Shown piece by piece: positions 1 through 60,786 of a stretch of 64,000 nt of DNA (its first letter is position 1; each line of letters opens with the position of its first letter). Location of the stretch: contig NZ_KI421498.1 in assembly GCF_000473105.1 (NCBI RefSeq), forward strand, positions 372,001-436,000. The letters run 5' to 3'. This stretch comes from Phaeobacter inhibens DSM 16374 (lineage in GTDB: Bacteria > Pseudomonadota > Alphaproteobacteria > Rhodobacterales > Rhodobacteraceae). A program made the position numbers and the translations under genes. The notes under the pieces are model-generated. The model was given only the letters and a program-made list of their open reading frames with translations. It had not been told where the DNA came from and did no database searches.

Positions 1-201
1 CTGGCGCAGTTTGGCGACCGTCTGGTCAATACCCGCTCCACCACATGGCGCGGATTGAGCGAGGCGGAGCGGGCGGAGGATCCCATGGCGCTGCTTAAGG
101 CCCATCCTACGCTGATGAAACGTCCGCTAATCAAATCAGGGGACGATCTGCATCTCGGCTGGGATGCCAAAACCAAGGCGGCCCTTGGCGTTGAGGGCTA
201 G
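1..201 (+). CDS. ArsC/YffB-family reductase-like protein, C-terminal part
   Basis: The open frame enters from the left edge and stops with TAG at 199-201, giving the last 66 residues. The sequence NTRSTTWRGLSEAE followed by a KRPLIK segment and a final LGWD...ALG stretch matches the C-terminal half of the arsenate-reductase-like ArsC/YffB/Spx thioredoxin-fold family. The N-terminal half with the catalytic cysteine lies outside the window, so activity cannot be judged. Members of the YffB branch are usually not true arsenate reductases. Partial gene; family call fairly confident, function unknown. Confidence 0.7.
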   Translation: MAQFGDRLVNTRSTTWRGLSEAERAEDPMALLKAHPTLMKRPLIKSGDDLHLGWDAKTKAALGVEG

Positions 202-241
202 GATCCCCATGTCAGTTCCAGAGTAGATGAGGAGAGCGGCA

Positions 242-610
242 ATGCGCAATGCAGCGCTGGTGCTGGGCATCGTGGCCGGGCTGATTGGGATGGTGGTTGG
301 GTTTGCGGGTTATGGTTATACCGCCGCCGTGGAGTATTTTGGCGAAATCGACGGGATTGCCCGGCAGGTCGATGATGTTGATCAGCTGCGGCTTTTGGCA
401 GTGATCTCGCCTATTCTGGCGCTGGCGGGCGGTGCGATGGCGCTGTCCCGCGCGCTGTGGGGCGGGGTGCTGTTGCTTGCGTCGGCGGCAGGGCTCTATG
501 CCGGGTTCGGGCTCAATGTCTTTACCATCTTCCCGATCTCACTGGCGCTTTTGGGCGGGCTGCTAGCGCTTGCTGCCGGCAAACCGGATGAGCCGAAGGC
601 GCATTTCTGA
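242..610 (+). CDS. small integral membrane protein, unknown function
   Basis: This encodes 122 residues with about four hydrophobic segments (roughly residues 2-24, 50-68, 70-88 and 93-112), so it is almost certainly an inner-membrane protein. An ATG at 227 is in frame, but the GAGGAG at 229-234 overlaps it and is well spaced for the ATG at 242, which I chose. It follows the ArsC-like gene by 40 bp in the same direction and may be cotranscribed. It ends before a strong bidirectional terminator. I do not recognise a functional domain. Confidence 0.6.
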   Translation: MRNAALVLGIVAGLIGMVVGFAGYGYTAAVEYFGEIDGIARQVDDVDQLRLLAVISPILALAGGAMALSRALWGGVLLLASAAGLYAGFGLNVFTIFPISLALLGGLLALAAGKPDEPKAHF

Positions 611-632
611 CCCGAGGTGACTAACGGTCATG

Positions 633-667
633 AAAAAAGGCGCCGCTGCGGATACAGGGCGCCTTTT
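633..667. terminator. bidirectional rho-independent terminator
   Basis: The stem AAAAGGCGCC (635-644) pairs with GGCGCCTTTT (658-667) around a 13-base loop. It has A- and T-runs on both sides, so it can serve the rightward membrane-protein gene and the leftward DoxX gene, which converge here. Confidence 0.8.
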
Positions 668-687
668 GTGTTTGAGAGCTCAGCAGA

Positions 688-1224
688 TCAGGCGGCGGCA
701 GGTGCCGTGGCGCGCCGCGCCAGCGCATCCAGCGACAGGGGGCCGGCACCCTTGAAGACGAGAACGAGCAGCAGGAATGTCCACATAACCCGCTGATCCA
801 CCAGACCGATGGAATTGTCAAAGAGACTGCCCAGTTTCACACCATGCCCGGTGACATCGACAATGGTCTGCACCCAGATGAAGCCAATGGTGCCAAGCGC
901 GGCCAGACGGGTGAACAACCCAACAAGGATCAGCGCAGGCAGCACGTATTCGGCAATCGTCCCGGCAAAGATCACCAGCCGCTGAAGGATATTGAGCTGG
1001 GAGACATCATAAAGCACAGCCTCGGCAGCTTTGGGAAAGATCTGACCAAACGCCCCGGCAGAGGGCGAAAAGATCGACCCGTCAATCTTCAGCCCGGCTG
1101 AGTTCCAGTAATAGACCAGTAAAACAGCGGCAAAGACCAGCCTCGCCAGGGTCGGGATGATGAACGCCGACAATCTGTCAGCCCTGCCGGTGAGAGAGGT
1201 ATAAGAGGAAACAAGCGCGTGCAT
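688..1224 (-). CDS. DoxX-family membrane protein (last gene of bufferin operon)
   Basis: This is a 178-residue protein with four predicted membrane segments and the DoxX layout: an N-terminal LARLVFAAVLLVYYWNSAG helix, then AGTIAEYVLPALILVGLFTRLAALG, a third helix, and a C-terminal helix ending in FKGAGPLSLDAL. DoxX proteins are often the last gene of bufferin clusters (sometimes called BufD) and may supply reducing or oxidising power at the membrane; that role is inferred. It begins 3 bp after the stop of the DUF2063 gene, which places it firmly in the operon running from 3202 down to 688. Confidence 0.8.
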   Translation of the reverse strand: MHALVSSYTSLTGRADRLSAFIIPTLARLVFAAVLLVYYWNSAGLKIDGSIFSPSAGAFGQIFPKAAEAVLYDVSQLNILQRLVIFAGTIAEYVLPALILVGLFTRLAALGTIGFIWVQTIVDVTGHGVKLGSLFDNSIGLVDQRVMWTFLLLVLVFKGAGPLSLDALARRATAPAAA

Positions 1225-1227
1225 CGG

Positions 1228-1983
1228 TTATCCTTTGCGATCTAGGTCAATGATTGCACCGCCTTGCAACAACAGGGCGAGCGTATGAGAGAGGTCAAAA
1301 TCCGGGTGGTCGGCCTGCACCTCGGTCAGGGCCTCTTCCAATGTGGCACCGGAGGTGAGGGCGGTGATCCAGTCCGCGCCACCCGGAGGTAGCTCCTGAA
1401 TGATGGGGTCGAATTCGGGCCGGGTGATCAGCACATCCTGCGCCATATGCCGGGGCTTGGGAGCGTTCTCTTCGGTGTTGAAGCGCCAGATATCATAGAT
1501 CGGCCAGGGTGAGCCCAGCAGGGCAACGGCGGGGGCCAGCGTCAGCCGGGTCGCCATCAGCGCCTCCGGGGGCAGGGCTGCCAGACGCGCCGGGGCAACC
1601 GCTGTGGCGTCGCCTGCGTGATACGCCCGGCGAAGGGCGAGGTCGAGCCGCGCCGCATCGGGCAGATAGCCGAGGTGTTTCAGCTGCTCCATCCCGGCGA
1701 GAAACGCGGGAAATTCAGCGCCATAGTGCATCATCAGCGGCGAGGAGGGCGGATGGGCGCGCAGGTACATGCCCGCCAGCCCGTCGAGGTTCTGCTTACC
1801 CAGCAGTTTGCCAATCAGGGGAAAGGCGCTGTGCATCGCCTCGGAAAGGGAGACCGCGATATTATTGCGATAGACGCTGAACCGCCGCCCGGCGGGCTGG
1901 CCTGTCGCATCCAGCAGTCCCTCCGGCACCGGCTGGCCCGCGTCCATCATGGCGTGGGTGAATTCTGTCTGGCTTACAGTCAT
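1228..1983 (-). CDS. bufC: DUF2063 family protein, BufC-like partner of the MNIO enzyme
   Basis: This encodes 251 residues. The N-terminal half carries RRFSVYRNNI (near residue 30) and the HPPSSPLMMHYG segment (near residue 85), typical of the DUF2063 'putative DNA-binding' domain. In bufferin and other MNIO clusters this family acts as the partner that presents the precursor to the DUF692 enzyme; DNA binding has little support. The ATG at 1983 overlaps the stop of the upstream enzyme gene by 4 bases (ATGA, 1980-1983), so I chose it over upstream in-frame starts. The overlap suggests translational coupling. Confidence 0.85.
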   Translation of the reverse strand: MTVSQTEFTHAMMDAGQPVPEGLLDATGQPAGRRFSVYRNNIAVSLSEAMHSAFPLIGKLLGKQNLDGLAGMYLRAHPPSSPLMMHYGAEFPAFLAGMEQLKHLGYLPDAARLDLALRRAYHAGDATAVAPARLAALPPEALMATRLTLAPAVALLGSPWPIYDIWRFNTEENAPKPRHMAQDVLITRPEFDPIIQELPPGGADWITALTSGATLEEALTEVQADHPDFDLSHTLALLLQGGAIIDLDRKG

Positions 1984-2828
1984 GCCGACACGCGCTCCAG
2001 CGCGGTTGCGGCGCGGGTGGCCTCGGCTGCCAACACAGGCCAGTCGGGCACATCGGTGTCCCATTCGACCAGCACAGGTTTGGGGCCGGATTTCGCCAGC
2101 GTATAATCCAGCAGCGCCCAGACCGGATCCACCACCTCAGCGCCGTGGCTGTCGATCAGCAGCGGCTTGCCGTGGTCGTCTTCATCCTCGTCATGGCCGC
2201 CAAGGTGGATTTCACCGACCTGATCCAGAGCAAAGGCGTCGATATAACCCTGAGGCGAAAAATCGAGATTGGTGGCGGAGACAAAGACATTGTTCACATC
2301 CAAGAGCAGCCCGCAGCCGGTGCGGCGGGTGATCTCGGTCAGAAACTCCGGCTCGGACCAGCTGCTCTCGGCAAAAGCGAGGTAGCTGGAGGGGTTTTCC
2401 AGCAGCATCCGGCGGCCGATGGTGTCCTGCACCTGATTGATATGATCGCAGACCCGCGCCAGCGTGGCATCCGTATAGGGCAGCGGCAGCAGATCGTTGT
2501 AAAAATGGCTGTCATGGGTGGACCAGGCGAGATGCTCAGAAAAACTGGCGGGATTGAGCCAGCCGACCAGATGTTTCAGCCGTGCCAGATGATCGGCGTC
2601 CAATGGCCCTTCGCCGCCGATAGAGAGGCCGACGCCATGGACGGAGATGGCAAACTGTTCGCAGAGGTGGCGCAGCTGCGCGATCGGGCGGCCACCGTCG
2701 CCCATGTAGTTTTCGGCGTGGATTTCCAGCCATTTCACCGGGCCTGCATCGGCGAGGATATCGGCAAAATGCTGCGGCTTGTAGCCAACACCTGTGGCAG
2801 CAGGCAGGAAAGGGGCGGCGTCCAGCAT
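1980..2828 (-). CDS. bufB: DUF692 multinuclear non-heme iron oxidase (MNIO), BufB-like peptide-modifying enzyme
   Basis: This is a 282-residue TIM-barrel protein of the DUF692/MNIO family. Family motifs in order are HAENY (37-41), HGVGLSIGG (64-72), SEHLAWS (97-103), LENPSSY (143-149), DVNN (177-180), EIHLGGH (206-212), SHGAEV (227-232) and EWDTD (255-259). They supply the His, Asp, Glu and Asn ligands of the iron cluster. MNIO enzymes oxidatively modify cysteines in ribosomally made peptides; in bufferins they form thiooxazole heterocycles on the BufA precursor. The gene lies 68 bp downstream of the precursor gene and overlaps bufC by 4 bp. Substrate assignment is from the neighbourhood. Confidence 0.9.
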   Translation of the reverse strand: MLDAAPFLPAATGVGYKPQHFADILADAGPVKWLEIHAENYMGDGGRPIAQLRHLCEQFAISVHGVGLSIGGEGPLDADHLARLKHLVGWLNPASFSEHLAWSTHDSHFYNDLLPLPYTDATLARVCDHINQVQDTIGRRMLLENPSSYLAFAESSWSEPEFLTEITRRTGCGLLLDVNNVFVSATNLDFSPQGYIDAFALDQVGEIHLGGHDEDEDDHGKPLLIDSHGAEVVDPVWALLDYTLAKSGPKPVLVEWDTDVPDWPVLAAEATRAATALERVSA

Positions 2829-2853
2829 GGCAGGTCCTCTGATCCGGTTACAG

Positions 2854-2878
2854 AAAGGGCGGGAGACTACCCCCGCCC
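2854..2878 (-). terminator. hairpin between bufferin precursor and enzyme genes (partial terminator)
   Basis: Read on the minus strand, GGGCGGG pairs with CCCGCCC across an 8-base loop, followed by TTTCTG. It sits between the stop of the precursor gene (2897) and the start of the MNIO gene (2828). A leaky terminator or 3'-end stabiliser here would let the precursor be made in excess over its enzyme. The T-run is short, so the function is inferred. Confidence 0.5.
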
Positions 2879-2896
2879 TCGGCCTTAAGCCTTTGC

Positions 2897-3202
2897 TTAT
2901 GCAGGCAGGTCACGCTCCAGCGGCTCCAGCGAGCCCTTGCGGTCGCCGCCATCCGCCATTGCAGGCAGGTCCATGCCTTCACAGCTGCCTGCGTCCACCA
3001 GGGTCCAGGCGTTGCCTTGATAGTCAACGGTGGAGGTGCCGGCGCAGGTGGTGCCGGGACCGGCGGCGCAGTCATTCTGGCCAGCCAGGGAGACGCCATA
3101 GCATTTCTCTTTGGACTGAGCGGCGGCTGGGGTGACCATGGCAGAGGTCAGCGCGGCAGCAACGGCACCAGCGACGGCGAGGGATTTTGCAGTGTTGGAC
3201 AT
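2897..3202 (-). CDS. bufA: bufferin-type secreted Cys-rich precursor (DUF2282, BufA1-like)
   Basis: This encodes 101 residues. The N-terminus (1-28) is a Sec-type signal ending AAA-Q, and four cysteines follow at 34, 45, 53 and 74 in the contexts [20 protein letters not shown] and GSCEG. This is the pattern of DUF2282 bufferins, periplasmic copper-binding RiPPs whose cysteines are modified by a DUF692 enzyme. A 27-residue acidic and charged tail follows the last cysteine. It is the first gene of the operon with bufB, bufC and DoxX. A role in buffering copper or another metal is inferred from the family. Confidence 0.88.
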
Positions 3203-3367
3203 CGGTGTCTTCCTTCTTTGGAATTTGGTTGCGAGGCGGTTGTTACAGGTCAGACATTAGCTCAGGCCGAGAAGTCTTTGAATTCACGAGCCTGTGTCTC
3301 ACGCGGGCGTCAGCAGCTGTGACCGTATATTACAACCTTCCGGCTGCTGAACCCTTAAAACCATGCG

Positions 3368-3400
3368 CAAAAAGAAACCGGCCCCGCAAGTGGGGGCCGG
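3368..3400 (-). terminator. rho-independent terminator of thrS
   Basis: On the minus strand the stem CCGGCCCC/GGGGCCGG (3378-3385 with 3393-3400) is followed by a T-rich tract (TTTCTTTTT). It lies 36 bp past the thrS stop and is oriented to end that transcript before the bufferin promoter region (3203-3365). Confidence 0.8.
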
Positions 3401-3436
3401 TAAATCGGTAAAGATCAGCAAAAGACCGCAGAAATG

Positions 3437-5383
3437 TTACAGAAGATCCGGCGGAGTTGCCTCAACCGCCAGTGCTTTTGTTACAGCGTCCAGCGCCTCG
3501 ACCTTGGTCTGCTTCTCGCCAAGACGCCGGACGGAGACGGTGCGCTCCTCGACTTCGCGGTGGCCCACGGCCAGAATGACAGGCACCTTGCCCACCGAAT
3601 GCTCGCGGACCTTGTAGTTGATCTTCTCGTTGCGGATGTCGGCCTCGGCCCGCACACCGGCGGCGCGCAGGGTTTCAACCACTTCGTTCACATAATCATC
3701 CGCGTCCGATGTGATGGAGGCGACAACCACCTGACGCGGGGCCAGCCAGAACGGCAGCTTGCCTGCGTGTTCTTCGATCAGGATGCCAATGAAACGTTCG
3801 AAACTGCCCAGCGTGGCGCGGTGCAGCATGAACGGGCGATGCTTGCTGCCGTCCTGACCGATGAAATTCGCATCCAGCCGTTCCGGCAGGTTGGGATCCA
3901 CCTGCAGGGTGCCGCACTGCCAGTTCCGCCCAATGGCGTCGGTCAGGGTGAATTCCAGCTTGGGACCGTAAAAGGCACCTTCGCCCTCCAGCAGCTCATA
4001 CTCATAGCCCGCCGCCTTGCAGGCATCACCAAGCGCCTTTTCCACCAGATCCCAGCTTTCATCGCTGCCGATCCGCTTTTCCGGGCGGGTCGAGAGCTTG
4101 ATGGTCCAGTCATGGAAACCGAGGTCGGCATAGACTTTGGACAGGAAAGCGATGAATTTTGCAGTTTCAGATTCGATCTGATCCTCGGCGCAGAAGATAT
4201 GGCCATCATCCTGAGTGAACCCACGCACCCGCATAATACCATGCAGCGCGCCCGAGGGTTCATAGCGCGCACAGGAGCCGAATTCGGCCATGCGCAGCGG
4301 CAGATCGCGGTAGGATTTGAGGCCCTGATTAAACACCTGCACGTGGCAGGGGCAGTTCATCGGCTTCAGCGCGTTCACGGCCTTTTCACGGGCGTGATCC
4401 TCGTCGACCTCAACGATGAACATGTTTTCCTGGTATTTGTCCCAGTGGCCCGAGGCCTCCCACAGTTTGCGGTCCACCACCTGCGGGGTGTTCACCTCCA
4501 CATAGCCGTCGCGGTCCTGCATGCGGCGCATGTAGTCCTGCAAGGTGGTATAGATTTTCCAGCCGTTGGGATGCCAGAAGATCTGGCCGGGTGCCTCTTC
4601 CTGCATGTGGAACAGGTTCATCTCGCGGCCAAGCTTGCGGTGGTCGCGCTTGGCGGCCTCTTCCAGCATGTGGAGGTGGGCTTTCAGCTTCTCCTTGCCG
4701 GTGAAGGCAACGCCATAGATCCGCTGCAGCATGGCGCGGTCGCTGTCGCCGCGCCAATAGGCGCCTGCGATGGACATCAGCTTGAAGGCATCGCCCGGCA
4801 GCTGGCCGGTGTGCTGCAGGTGCGGGCCGCGGCAGAGATCCTGCCAGTCGCCATGCCAGTACATCCGCAGAGGTTCATCACCGGGGATGCTCTCGATCAG
4901 CTCGACCTTATAGGGTTCGTTCAGGTCGGTGTAATGCTGGATCGCGCGGTCGCGGTCCCAGACCTCGGTCCGGACTTCATCACGTTTGTTGATGATCTCT
5001 TTCATCTTTTTCTCGATGGTGCCGAGATCTTCGGGGGTGAAAGGCTCGGCGCGATCAAAGTCGTAGTACCAGCCGTTTTCAATAACCGGGCCGATGGTGA
5101 CCTTGGTGTCGGGCCAGATATCCTGCACAGCACGCGCCATCACATGGGCCAGATCGTGACGGATCAGCTCATTGGCCTGCTCTTCGTCTTTCATGGTGTG
5201 GATGGCGATGGCGGCATCGGAATCGATGGGCCATTGCAGGTCCCAATGCGCACCGTTCACGGTGGCGGAGATCGCCTTCTTGGCCAGCGAGGTCGAGATG
5301 GACGCGGCGACCTCGGCAGGGGTGACGCCTGCGTCATAGGATCGTGCATTGCCATCGGGGAAGGTGAGAGAGACTTGGGCCAT
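3437..5383 (-). CDS. thrS: threonyl-tRNA synthetase
   Basis: This encodes 648 residues, close to the usual length of bacterial ThrRS. It has an N-terminal TGS domain (about 1-60) and an editing domain with the [11 protein letters not shown] segment. The class II catalytic core carries the zinc-binding cysteine in [10 protein letters not shown] and motif 2 in [10 protein letters not shown], and the C-terminal anticodon-binding domain starts around RQVVVASI. It charges tRNA-Thr in the cytoplasm. The ATG at 5383 gives the standard N-terminus [11 protein letters not shown]. It appears monocistronic, with its own terminator downstream. A 706-codon frame on the opposite strand is a shadow. Confidence 0.97.
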
Positions 5384-5555
5384 ATATCGGCACTCCTCGT
5401 CGGTTTGGCGCCCACAGAACGCCCGGTTGCGGGTTATGGTGTTTTGTCCGTTTGGCAGGGGCGCGCGAGGCTGTCAAGCGGGCGAGGGGCCTGCCCCGCG
5501 CACTCCCTGGGATATTTTGGGCCAGAAGATGTAAAAGCCGGATCAGGGGCCTAGA

Positions 5556-6560
5556 TCAGGGGGCGGGGGCTGGCACGCCTTCGCGGATCATGGCTGAGTA
5601 GTCTGGCGTGATGCCCTGCGCCTGCGCCCTGGCCGTAATACTGCCGCGTTTGCGCAGCTCCTCGGTGCTGTAGCCTGCCGCCAATACCCCCTGATCATGG
5701 GCGTATTCGGGCAGGTAGCCATTGGCCAGCACCCGCCAGTCCAGCGGCACGTCCTGCACGATGGTGCGGATCATCGTCATCACCACGGTGGTGCAGTTTG
5801 AGGTGAGCGAGTTGTACCACTGCGGCTGTGCGGCCAGCCGGTTGGCGGCCTCGACATATTGCATCAGCAGCGCTCGGGCGGTGTCCGGATCTGTGTCGAT
5901 ACGAAACAGCTGCACATCCTCGCCACGGGCATTTGTGCGGGTGCCCACCACATCGCGCTCATCGGCGGCGATCAGCACCAGCGTGTTGGTCTTGAACAGA
6001 TCCGCGATTGGGGAGAAACCGCCGCCGACCTGACGCCGCACCTCAACCGACCAGGCAATATGCGCACCCTCCTCAAAGCCGAAGCTGACCACCATATGGG
6101 CCATCTCCGGCCCCGCCCAATAGGACATGAAGAGATCTACGCTGTTCAGTTGACTGAGGTCATAGCTGCGGGTTTCCCAGCGGGGGGTGAACTCGGTTGG
6201 GGTGGACCAGTCGAAATTGCGCACGTCTGTCAGCGTCAGAATATCGCCGTCGCGGGTGCCAGTGACCTGCCGCGCAACATCGGGCGACCATTGCGCCTCG
6301 GCCGGTGGGGTCAGGCTCGCCCACCACCAGATCAGCGCCGCAAGTGCGAGACAGAAGGTCGAAAGCCCACGCAGCGCGCGGCCCCGGATCACCGCCCAGA
6401 GGGTTGCCAGACCGAGGCCCGCAAAGCCGGAGGCCGCAGCCGTACGCCAGAGGCTGTCAACCGGCAGCCGATACCACAGCGCCATGGCCCCCCAGAGGGT
6501 GGTCAAAAGGATCAGCAGGCAGAGGAGACCGAGACAGAAAAGACGAAGGGCACGGGGCAA
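5556..6560 (-). CDS. DUF4105 membrane-anchored protein
   Basis: This encodes 334 residues: two or three N-terminal hydrophobic helices (about 5-27, 38-58 and 68-85), then a periplasmic domain with WSVEVRR, FRIDTDPDTARALL and WYNSLTSNCTT. The last segment, with a conserved Asn-Cys, is typical of DUF4105, related to the N-terminal domain of Lnb lacto-N-biosidase and possibly papain-like. I chose a TTG start at 6560 because AGGAG lies 7 bases upstream and no better ATG precedes the first helix. Function unknown. The 172 bp between it and thrS hold only a diverged copy-like GATATTTT...GAAGATG motif. Confidence 0.7.
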   Translation of the reverse strand: MPRALRLFCLGLLCLLILLTTLWGAMALWYRLPVDSLWRTAAASGFAGLGLATLWAVIRGRALRGLSTFCLALAALIWWWASLTPPAEAQWSPDVARQVTGTRDGDILTLTDVRNFDWSTPTEFTPRWETRSYDLSQLNSVDLFMSYWAGPEMAHMVVSFGFEEGAHIAWSVEVRRQVGGGFSPIADLFKTNTLVLIAADERDVVGTRTNARGEDVQLFRIDTDPDTARALLMQYVEAANRLAAQPQWYNSLTSNCTTVVMTMIRTIVQDVPLDWRVLANGYLPEYAHDQGVLAAGYSTEELRKRGSITARAQAQGITPDYSAMIREGVPAPAP

Positions 6561-58546: not shown

Positions 58547-58621
58547 GGGTGATTAGCTCAGTGGTAGAGCGCTTCGTTCACATCGAAGATGTCAGGAGTT
58601 CAAATCTCTTATCACCCACCA
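58547..58621 (+). tRNA. tRNA-Val (anticodon CAC)
   Basis: The cloverleaf is complete: acceptor stem GGGTGAT/ATCACCC, D-arm GCTC...GAGC, anticodon stem CTTCG/CGAAG around TTCACAT (anticodon CAC), T-arm with TTCAAAT, and an encoded CCA (58619-58621). Confidence 0.95.
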
Positions 58622-58754
58622 TTCTCTTTCGATTTGATGGTTTTCTACGCTTTCCGATGGCGCGTCGTCTTGCTGCGCGCGCTCTTCCCTGCCCCAGAAA
58701 ACCTGTCTAGATGTTGCGGCAACGCCTAGGGGCGAAGCAGCAATGAGGGCAGGC

Positions 58755-59324
58755 ATGGCATATCCGAAAATCTGGTTTCTGCGGCATGGGCAGACGGAGT
58801 GGAACGCCGAAGGGCGGATCCAGGGGCAGCTGGAATCAAAGCTCAGCCCCTTGGGGATTGAACACGCCCAGCAGCAGGCGGGCCTGATGGCGCCGATCCT
58901 GGCGCAGGGGCCTGCCTGCTACGTCTCGCCGTTGGGGCGGGCGCAGCAGACCGCGCGGATTGCGCTTGGCGATCAGCCCTTCATCACCGATGCGCGGCTG
59001 GCCGAGGCGCAGGCCGGCGTGTTTCAGGGGCTGACACGACAAGAGGTCGCGGCTGAGTACCCGGAGATCTATGCCGCCAATCCGCTGAACCTTGACTTGT
59101 TCTGCGCCGCGCCACAGGGCGAGGGGTTCGACGCGTTTCAGGCCCGGATCACGGATTTCCTGACCGGGCTGAGTGAGCCGACTGTTGTGGTGGCGCATGG
59201 GCTGTGGGGGCAGGTTCTGCGCGGGGTGATCTGCGGCTTGTCACGAGCGGAAATGGCGGCGCTGCCGAATGAGCAGGGCTGTATCTATCAGCTGTATAAC
59301 GGCAGCGAGCAGGTGCTGCGCTAA
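58755..59324 (+). CDS. histidine phosphatase family protein
   Basis: This encodes 189 residues. The phosphohistidine motif FLRHGQTEWN is at 8-17, with a basic pocket in YVSPLGRAQQTARIAL, an acid in DARLAEAQAGVFQGLT, and the second His in VVVAHGLWGQVLRGVI. It belongs to the phosphoglycerate-mutase-like phosphatases; the substrate is unknown. The ATG at 58755 has GAGGG 7 bases upstream; an ATG at 58743 is in frame. It lies between two tRNA-Val genes. Confidence 0.88.
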   Translation: MAYPKIWFLRHGQTEWNAEGRIQGQLESKLSPLGIEHAQQQAGLMAPILAQGPACYVSPLGRAQQTARIALGDQPFITDARLAEAQAGVFQGLTRQEVAAEYPEIYAANPLNLDLFCAAPQGEGFDAFQARITDFLTGLSEPTVVVAHGLWGQVLRGVICGLSRAEMAALPNEQGCIYQLYNGSEQVLR

Positions 59325-59400
59325 GGCGATGACTTTTTCGCAGATTTCTGCGATTTACCTCTTGCGTCCAGCGCGCGGATTCTCTAAATCCCCGCTCACC

Positions 59401-59476
<76 letters not shown>

Positions 59477-59715
59477 TATACCCCCTTGAATTCCTGAAGA
59501 TTTTGCTCTGCCAACGCCTGATGCCTGCGATTTGGTTGTGGCCTGCGGTCGATCGCTGACGTCCTTAAATCATTCTTTTTTGATCATTGAACGGCGGGGC
59601 GGCGGCTGAATTTGCGGTTACGCCATCTCGCGCTAGGCTGTTGGTTCTCCCCTGATGATTTTGTCAGCTGACGTCGGGAGAATTTGTATCAAGTCTATGA
59701 TTTGGAGTTTCTGTG

Positions 59716-60087
59716 ATGACGTATAAGGCGATCCTTTCAATTGTTGTGTCTGTTCTGCTGGCTGTGCCGGTCGCAGGCGAGGCGGGGTCCTTCAAACATG
59801 TGAAAACCGAGGCTGATTTCCTCGCTCTGGTTCGCGGCAAGACGCTGAGCGCTGATTGGGGGAGCATGCAGATCCTGCCCAATGGTAAGATCAAGGGAAA
59901 GACACAGCAGGGCAAGATGGTTGGCGCATGGCAGTGGAATGGCGCCCTGTGGTGCCGCAATGTGCGGATCGGTAAGCAGCCGGAGCGGGGTACGGATTGT
60001 CAGAAAATCGGCGTCTCTGGAAACCAGCTGCAGTTTATCCGTGAGCAGGGCCGGGGGACGGCCGGTGTCATGGTGATCTCCAACTGA
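59716..60087 (+). CDS. small secreted protein, unknown function
   Basis: This encodes 123 residues: a signal peptide (about 1-24, SIVVSVLLAVPVAGEAGS) and a compact mature part with FLALVRGKTLSADWGSMQILPNGKIKG, GAWQWNGALWCRNVRIG and ERGTDCQKIGVSGNQLQFI, with two cysteines likely to pair. Similar small periplasmic proteins occur across Roseobacter genomes, sometimes misnamed dihydrodipicolinate reductase; I do not assign a function. The ATG at 59716 has GGAG 8 bases upstream. Confidence 0.7.
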   Translation: MTYKAILSIVVSVLLAVPVAGEAGSFKHVKTEADFLALVRGKTLSADWGSMQILPNGKIKGKTQQGKMVGAWQWNGALWCRNVRIGKQPERGTDCQKIGVSGNQLQFIREQGRGTAGVMVISN

Positions 60088-60418
60088 TCAGGAATGACCG
60101 GTGGCGCGGCTCTGGTGTGGCGTGCCACCGGGGCTGTCTGTGGCACCTTGCGGCTGGATGGCGCTGTTGTTGTCGCCGGTTGGGTCCGTGATCCGCGTGG
60201 CCTGAGGCCGACTGTGATTTTCTGGATGGATTATCCCTGGTCTCCGGCGGGGCGCGAGATGGGAATTTCGGAAAAACAATGAGTTAGTCGGCTTGTTGGC
60301 GGTGGTTTTGTTTTTTTTCACGGAAACCGGAGAAAATGCCAAAACACCGCTTGACGATCCCTCGGTGCTGCGAATATTACAGCCCAACATTCAGCGGCGA
60401 CGTTGGATGGAACAGCAA
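60088..60418 (+). other. intergenic region before the tRNA-Asp cluster
   Basis: No gene is supported. It holds a stem CCGGTGGC/GCCACCGG (60098-60131) without a T-run, a T-rich tract (60304-60318), and a promoter-like TTGACG-N16-AATATT pair (60351-60378) about 40 bp before the first tRNA-Asp, probably driving the tRNA cluster. Confidence 0.55.
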
Positions 60419-60495
60419 GCGGTTGTAGCTCAGTTGGTTAGAGTACCGGCCTGTCACGCCGGGGGTCGCGGGTTCGAGCCCCGTCAACCGCGCCA
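60419..60495 (+). tRNA. tRNA-Asp (anticodon GTC), copy 1
   Basis: Acceptor stem GCGGTTG/CAACCGC, anticodon stem CCGGC/GCCGG around CTGTCAC (anticodon GTC), T-loop TTCGAGC, discriminator G and encoded CCA are all present. It is identical to copies 2 and 3. Confidence 0.97.
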
Positions 60496-60545
60496 CTGCT
60501 GTCCGCCCCGGATCTGGGTTAAGGGATCCAAATGAAAGTAAATGC

Positions 60546-60622
60546 GCGGTTGTAGCTCAGTTGGTTAGAGTACCGGCCTGTCACGCCGGGGGTCGCGGGT
60601 TCGAGCCCCGTCAACCGCGCCA
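60546..60622 (+). tRNA. tRNA-Asp (anticodon GTC), copy 2
   Basis: The 77 bases are identical to copy 1, starting 50 bp after its end. The spacer sequences differ between copies. Confidence 0.97.
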
Positions 60623-60709
60623 CTTTCAAATCTGCCCTGATGATCAGGGTCCGCCCCGGAGGGGAACATATGTCAGGCGCCTGCGTCTGATCTGCCGAAA
60701 GGCCCATGC

Positions 60710-60786
60710 GCGGTTGTAGCTCAGTTGGTTAGAGTACCGGCCTGTCACGCCGGGGGTCGCGGGTTCGAGCCCCGTCAACCGCGCCA
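60710..60786 (+). tRNA. tRNA-Asp (anticodon GTC), copy 3
   Basis: The 77 bases are identical to copies 1 and 2, starting 87 bp after copy 2. It is followed by a terminator at 60816. Confidence 0.97.

Follow-up and report, generated by a model that had tools for sequence, protein, structure and literature searches.

A probable copper-buffering bufferin operon of Phaeobacter inhibens with a putative tandem palindromic operator in place of sigmaF-NrsF control

Bufferins are among the largest families of ribosomally synthesized and post-translationally modified peptides (RiPPs) made with MNIO enzymes, and they have been linked with copper tolerance. Precursors of the Buf1 type carry modifications on their two central cysteines and a disulfide between the outer two (PMC12452194). 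In Caulobacter, two operons with DUF2282 precursors depend on sigmaF through the promoter GTAACC-N16-CGAA (PMC3511200). A DUF692 RiPP cluster, called by antiSMASH, has been reported as common to 18 strains of Phaeobacter inhibens (PMC11595833). Here we analyze a stretch of 64,000 nucleotides from P. inhibens DSM 16374 (contig NZ_KI421498.1, positions 372,001 to 436,000; hereafter the window, in whose positions all coordinates are given), in which four genes, all on the minus strand, very probably form a Buf1-type bufferin (captophorin) operon that serves copper buffering and is driven through an operator without sigmaF-NrsF. Judged by their sequences, the peptide and the enzyme are ordinary members of the bufferin family; the new part is the control region, where most of the relatives examined have a different and undescribed switch. 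The four genes are:

2897-3202, minus strand: bufA, DUF2282 (Buf1) precursor, 101 residues (PF10048, 83.1 bits against a cut-off of 22.4)
1980-2828, minus strand: bufB, MNIO (DUF692) enzyme, 282 residues (PF05114, NF050167, PDB entry 3bww, ligand positions)
1228-1983, minus strand: bufC, partner protein with DUF2063 and a RiPP recognition element (RRE)-like domain, 251 residues (PF09836, AlphaFold2 model, Foldseek)
688-1224, minus strand: DoxX-like membrane protein in the bufD position, 178 residues (PF07681 below threshold; gene order)

The bufB stop and the bufC start share four bases (ATGA), and the DoxX-like gene starts 3 bases past the bufC stop. A reading of this DNA made earlier without database searches (the sequence-only reading) had proposed a bufferin-type operon at 688-3202 with the 4-base overlap; both proved exact, and the identification is upheld by Pfam, NCBIfam, the ligand residues, the fold model of BufC and the gene order. 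BufB matches the Pfam family MbnB_TglH_ChrH (PF05114) with 341.2 bits (cut-off 25) and the NCBIfam model MNIO_BufB (NF050167) with 371.9 bits against a curated cut-off of 310. In this locus the NCBIfam models of HvfB, HvfC and HvfX give matches below their cut-offs. BufB aligns to PDB entry 3bww with an E-value of 1.1e-44 (156 bits), which is closer than TglH (64.1 bits) or MbnB (30-41 bits). The residues at the ligand positions, mapped like the essential residues below by motif and not from a structure, are H64, H99, E144, D177, N179/N180, H208, H212, D226, H228 and E255. Among 76 aligned BufB rows E144, D177, N179, N180, H208, D226, H228, E255 and D257 are invariant and H64, H99 and H212 are at least 97% conserved, which bears out the earlier statement that the enzyme has all family motifs. 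By the same mapping N175, D242 and H244, reported as essential in HvfB (PMC13419390), correspond to N179 or N180, D226 and H228, and D257 would match D249 of FonB, which has been proposed as a base (PMC13097082), making D257 the putative base here.

BufC matches DUF2063 (PF09836) with 79.6 bits (cut-off 27.2), and its 251 residues fall within the size of PME-type 1 partners, i.e. about 250-260 residues with DUF2063 and an RRE-like domain. Two sequence searches of the PDB with BufC gave two chance-level matches in one case and none in the other. Its AlphaFold2 model has a pLDDT of 94.4, and a Foldseek search with this model returned 8hi7_A (by its length the partner TglI; E 5.8e-6) and 3dee (NGO1945; E 3.3e-4); MbnC (E 0.25 and above) and TbiB1, an RRE protein (E 0.85), matched weakly. 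Because the model matches TglI and NGO1945, BufC is most likely an MNIO partner, and not a DNA-binding protein as the title of the Pfam family has it.

The two proteins that control the Caulobacter operons could not be traced here. NrsF was not found in the genome of DSM 16374 by a search that detected the Caulobacter control, and the best match to a sigmaF ortholog in this genome reached 22.9 bits (with the query taken from genome G016). In the 300 bases before bufA there was no match to GTAACC-N16-CGAA with up to two mismatches to the full motif, and the best match to the relaxed form GTAACN..CGAA had 2 mismatches. We therefore rejected sigmaF control of this operon, as NrsF, the sigmaF ortholog and the N16 promoter are all missing. 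The genomes of relatives show how the two genes and the promoter go together. Among 61 genomes (DSM 16374 and 60 others) bufA was found in 37 and an MNIO gene in 38; within the family to which the window belongs, Roseobacters included, the operon is widespread: bufA and MNIO were found in one and the same set of 28 genomes out of 37, and DSM 16374 has one gene of each kind. NrsF exceeded its cut-off in 5 of these 37 family genomes (a sixth, G001, gave a 21-bit match, below the cut-off), and the same five, which include the source of the query, have a sigmaF match of at least 134 bits, compared to at most 42.1 bits in the other 32. The buf genes are present in four of these five, each with a perfect GTAACN-N16-CGAA ahead of bufA and without an operator of the kind described below. 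The fifth (G036) has NrsF and a sigmaF ortholog in the absence of any bufA or MNIO match; its sigma factor may have other targets or be a relic.

A larger comparison was made with the best 80 of at least 586 confirmed relatives (the named loci), a set biased to Roseobacters, in which 78 loci have a readable precursor; the two unreadable ones (L136, L150) were dropped. The gene order A-B-C-DoxX is found in 77 of the 80. NrsF and sigmaF were sought with tblastn (four NrsF queries, one sigmaF query) within at most about 6 kb on each side, so that distant copies would be missed by these counts: NrsF was found in five loci, and a sigmaF gene in exactly these five among the 80. The N16 sigmaF promoter is perfect in four of them and has one mismatch in the fifth. 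A perfect N16 promoter is missing from all NrsF-less loci, four of which carry a match with N17 spacing at 205-226 bases upstream.

Ahead of bufA in DSM 16374 we find instead the following elements:

3282-3312, minus strand: putative tandem palindromic operator, TGACGCCCGCGTGAGACACAGGCTCGTGAAT (pattern, position weight matrix, relatives)
3284-3303, minus strand: 20-base core of the operator, one mismatch against CGTGANNCACGNNNNCGTGA
3277-3282, minus strand: TTCAAA, a weak -35-like hexamer directly next to the operator, missed by a consensus promoter scan
3254-3259, minus strand: -10-like hexamer TAATGT, 17 bases past the -35-like hexamer and 24 past the operator core
3209-3218, minus strand: ribosome-binding-site-like AAGAAGGAAG, read from the sequence

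With up to three mismatches to CGTGANNCACGNNNNCGTGA, the site occurs in 63 of the 78 bufA upstream regions, compared to 1.6% of 1560 dinucleotide shuffles and none of the 78 regions for the reversed pattern. These 63 loci span about 30 named genera (counted by hand). The 63 aligned sites give the consensus cTgACg-N4-yGTGA-N2-CACg-N4-yGTGA-N-T, i.e. two palindromes of the type TnACG/nCACG-N4-yGTGA placed 15 bases apart, with 1.2-1.8 bits in the upper-case columns and less than 0.3 bits in most flanking columns. The operator and NrsF exclude each other: the site is present in none of the five named loci with NrsF, and in 63 of the 73 without it. In a second set of 30 unnamed loci the numbers are 0 of 4 and 18 of 26; of the 18 operator loci, seven belong to the same genus, and one or more had already been counted among the named loci. 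The hexamer TAnnnT follows the core by 24-25 bases in 44 of the 63 sites (4.7% of shuffles have it at 23-25), and in these 44 the -35 hexamer is weak, with a mean of 1.8-2.4 matches out of 6 at spacers of 17-18 against a background of 1.5.

The operator may be essentially unique to bufA within a genome. In all 7 genomes of the genus, bufA is the sole match to the exact pattern, and when the 31-base pattern was searched with up to two mismatches in 15 genomes, bufA was the best or tied-best match in all 15, with no second matched sequence recurring between these genomes. A shorter pattern with one mismatch gave 0-12 matches in each of 12 genomes, exact ones included (0-4 for the reversed control), some of which are common within the genus. 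In DSM 16374 itself the six other matches (five with one mismatch, one with two) all fall within open frames 277-570 codons long and are probably coding sequence, not promoters, to judge from their position; weaker real operator sites may nevertheless exist. Neither the operator nor the loss of sigmaF-NrsF control in these relatives was found described in the open-licence papers searched, and a TCACG motif that appears in PMC4344238 belongs, as presented there, to an unrelated site.

The search for the regulator considered the neighbours of the operon and its plasmid-borne copies. An ArsR-like gene (13 loci) and a LysR-like gene (10 loci) were rejected as candidates, as they stand beyond other genes and are not general neighbours of buf. 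Plasmid-borne buf copies were likewise rejected as a source of the regulator: four copies on Paracoccus plasmids and one in Thalassobaculum carry sigmaF-NrsF beside buf instead, without an operator according to the position weight matrix (PWM), and among the four of these five that were scanned upstream the N16 promoter is perfect in one and has one mismatch in two, and Thalassobaculum has none that is convincing. In a Pseudorhodobacter plasmid copy, a 3-mismatch match to the operator failed the PWM. The Tritonibacter copy, on a replicon of 1.26 Mb, has kept both thrS and the operator. Separately, 252 plasmid records, 60 of them labelled Escherichia and 17 Klebsiella, have DUF2282 relatives, each with less than 80% query cover.

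The precursor itself was divided as follows:

3119-3202, minus strand: bufA codons 1-28, predicted Sec signal peptide that would double as the leader (read from the sequence)
3044-3070, minus strand: bufA codons 45-53, with the central cysteines C45 and C53, expected to become 5-thiooxazoles (invariant; PMC12452194)
2900-2980, minus strand: bufA codons 75-101, C-terminal tail with GSL and RDLPA (RD(L/I)P in relatives)

Read by eye, the N-terminus has K6, a hydrophobic stretch and an A-X-A motif with A28 as its last residue, after which cleavage is predicted; in 58 precursor sequences A28 is conserved to at least 90%. The cysteines are 34, 45, 53 and 74, with no others, as the sequence-only reading had it. 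In alignment A2 of the precursors C45 and C53 are invariant, and the precursors of all 78 readable relatives have exactly four cysteines. Four cysteines do not amount to four modified ones, because in the Buf1 precedent only the central two are modified (PMC12452194). The same reading had singled out a charged tail of 27 residues past the last cysteine. Its length is correct; its supposed peculiarity is not, since the median in the 78 readable relatives is also 27 (range 22-32) and RD(L/I)P is found in 76 of them, so that we reject the tail as an oddity of this member and regard it, on the basis of these alignments, as a clade trait. In a sample of the class (30 loci, 22 of them readable, one of which, L167, has an upstream extension) tails have 11-27 residues, and GSL is found in 19 and RD(L/I)P in 2 of the 22. 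The precursors of L027 and L029, with 127 and 140 residues in total, extend well beyond the RDLP motif and possibly contain extra domains. In G013 (L017, L065) and in L157 two tandem bufA copies stand ahead of the MNIO gene; the operator is absent, by PWM, ahead of both the first and the second copy. A sequence search of the PDB with BufA matched no solved structure.

We envisage the following scenario, in which the modification, export, disulfide and copper steps rest on what PMC12452194 and PMC13097082 describe for related systems. The Sec signal peptide of BufA would at the same time be its leader, and BufC would present BufA to the iron enzyme BufB, which would oxidize C45 and C53 to 5-thiooxazoles in the cytoplasm. 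The modified peptide would then be exported by Sec, the C34-C74 disulfide would close, and BufA would bind surplus copper in the periplasm; the DoxX-like protein would play an accessory part. Expression would be driven by a sigma70-like promoter with a weak -35 element, not by sigmaF-NrsF as in Caulobacter, and a putative regulator, responding to a presumed inducing signal, would bind the tandem operator of the TCACG-N4-CGTGA type just upstream. Because the operator abuts a poor -35 element, we read this regulator as most likely an activator that is encoded elsewhere. The wider proposition, that a dedicated, undescribed trans-acting activator has taken over from sigmaF-NrsF in the control of bufferins throughout the Roseobacter clade, with an operator that occurs essentially once per genome, at bufA, we regard as having about an even chance of being right.

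Several observations weigh against an operator-driven bufferin operon of this kind. In a leave-one-out test all 63 sites exceed the PWM maximum of 780 shuffles, and as these sites had been pre-selected by the pattern, this separation is partly circular. Ten of the 73 named loci without NrsF lack a site with up to three mismatches, although the PWM gives two of these ten a score typical of members and puts one more above the shuffle maximum. The consensus sigma70 scan did not report the proposed bufA promoter, and no regulator gene beside the operon recurs in most of the 75 loci whose neighbours were clustered. The Pseudorhodobacter plasmid copy has no sigmaF-NrsF in the 12 kb covered, and neither promoter element is convincing there. 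The AlphaFold2 model of BufA, built with 58 precursors, has a pLDDT of 50.7, too poor to place the tail or the cysteines. The DoxX profile (PF07681) scores 21.8 bits, below its cut-off of 23.6, so that the earlier naming of this gene stands by its position and its conservation in relatives and not by the profile; our own designation as DoxX-like is likewise based on gene order and conservation. In Buf1 operons a DoxX protein is common without being obligatory. Finally, all 63 operator loci have thrS, the gene next to bufA on its upstream side, in the fetched stretch. This suggests that they probably descend from one ancestral arrangement rather than represent independent origins of the operator.

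The last point leads to the reading that the upstream element is kept for thrS, or reflects common descent of a young locus, and plays no part in buf expression. We find this very improbable: a terminator-like hairpin stands between thrS and bufA, the columns that flank the operator are hardly conserved, and the spacing from the operator to the -10-like hexamer is fixed in 44 of the 63 sites. Linkage to thrS alone is no explanation, because four named thrS loci keep sigmaF-NrsF and have no operator, and the same is true of G016, where sigmaF-NrsF sits between thrS and bufA. A repressor site, or the site of a general regulator, is a less far-fetched reading of the same element, which we consider possible though doubtful. 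Its half-sites abut the -35 region, a position that repressors use too, and some one-mismatch matches to the shorter pattern are shared within the genus. However, the poor -35 element fits an activator-dependent promoter, no other identical site of the 31-base pattern, with up to two mismatches, was found in any two of the 15 genomes, and the additional matches in DSM 16374 fall in long frames. It could also be argued that the operon and its chemistry are as we describe, and that its main role lies in another stress (sulfur, thiols or other metals), in which the DoxX-like protein would be the key component. The targets of Caulobacter sigmaF came to light under chromate, and DoxX and a sulfite oxidase are among them (PMC3511200), other stresses have been suggested for bufferins (PMC12452194), and the new operator has no link to any known copper regulator. 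On the other hand, the characterized Buf1 peptides and their relatives bind copper (PMC12452194, PMC13097082), and the strong conservation of the precursor core and of BufB in relatives speaks against a role unrelated to copper; we therefore hold a different main stress to be unlikely and retain copper buffering as the probable function.

The surroundings of the operon are summarized as follows:

3437-5383, minus strand: thrS, threonyl-tRNA synthetase, the upstream neighbour (Pfam tRNA-synt_2b, HGTP_anticodon, TGS, tRNA_SAD)
3377-3401, minus strand: terminator-like hairpin in the gap between thrS and bufA (scan: 9-pair stem and T tract)
639-663, minus strand: GC-rich inverted repeat and, after it, a T run, 3' of the DoxX-like gene, a possible terminator (read from the sequence; the terminator scan was silent)
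227-610, plus strand: small membrane protein gene without a Pfam match, past the DoxX-like gene
1-201, plus strand: 3' end of a gene, also past the DoxX-like gene, which we take to be ArsC-like

The terminator scan of the region found 4 hairpin sites of this type where 1.7 are expected, and an Rfam search of window positions 1-6000 for RNA elements gave no match. A tblastn search placed thrS within the retrieved stretch in 75 of the 78 named relatives with a readable precursor. Protein clustering, for which five short or cut contigs were left out of the 80 and neighbours other than thrS were named by eye, places thrS upstream in 71 of the 75 remaining loci, and downstream of buf it finds an ArsC-like gene in 66, a CspA-like gene in 56 and a small membrane protein in 42; by eye, the first and the last of these clusters resemble the genes at 1-201 and 227-610. 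Far from the operon, at 58547-60786, five tRNA genes lie within 2.3 kb, two for Val with different anticodons and three for Asp.

In a sample of 192 genomes of the class, 74 have DUF2282. In the marine relatives, the conserved operator offers an exact bait for the regulator and thereby a route to the signal that induces the operon in the sea. If our wider proposition is true, marine bacteria have a new regulator of metal or thiol stress, and bufA is its single target and the handle for finding it.

It is instructive to compare this locus with the systems described previously. The 18-strain DUF692 cluster of P. inhibens is very likely orthologous, as DSM 16374 has a single MNIO gene and as 10 kb of a plasmid-sized contig of its assembly match P. 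inhibens plasmids at 89.7-96.1% identity and over 90-98% of the length (top 8 of 118 records). The supposition of the sequence-only reading that such a member had probably not been studied is nearly right: the cluster is already in print (PMC11595833), but the text of that paper on the cluster names neither bufferin, copper nor promoter. The pearlin pair TglH/TglI and the methanobactin pair MbnB/MbnC combine an MNIO enzyme with a partner as here, and the BufC model aligns with TglI and weakly with MbnC, whereas their precursors are different and have no signal peptides (PMC12452194). The captophorins fontiphorin and oxazolin (HvfA) share with Buf1 the MNIO enzyme with a PME1 partner, the 5-thiooxazole and the link to copper (PMC13097082), but their precursors are built of EGKCG repeats, with Lys-Cys, in contrast to the DUF2282 four-cysteine core of BufA. 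A further parallel is found in Caulobacter, where CC3254-CC3257 has DUF2282, DUF692, DUF2063 and DoxX in the same order as the Phaeobacter operon, and CC2907-CC2905 has the first three genes only, again in this order (PMC3511200). The difference lies in their control: the Caulobacter operons are driven by sigmaF from a mapped motif, while in Phaeobacter both NrsF and sigmaF are absent and the palindromic operator stands in the place of that motif.

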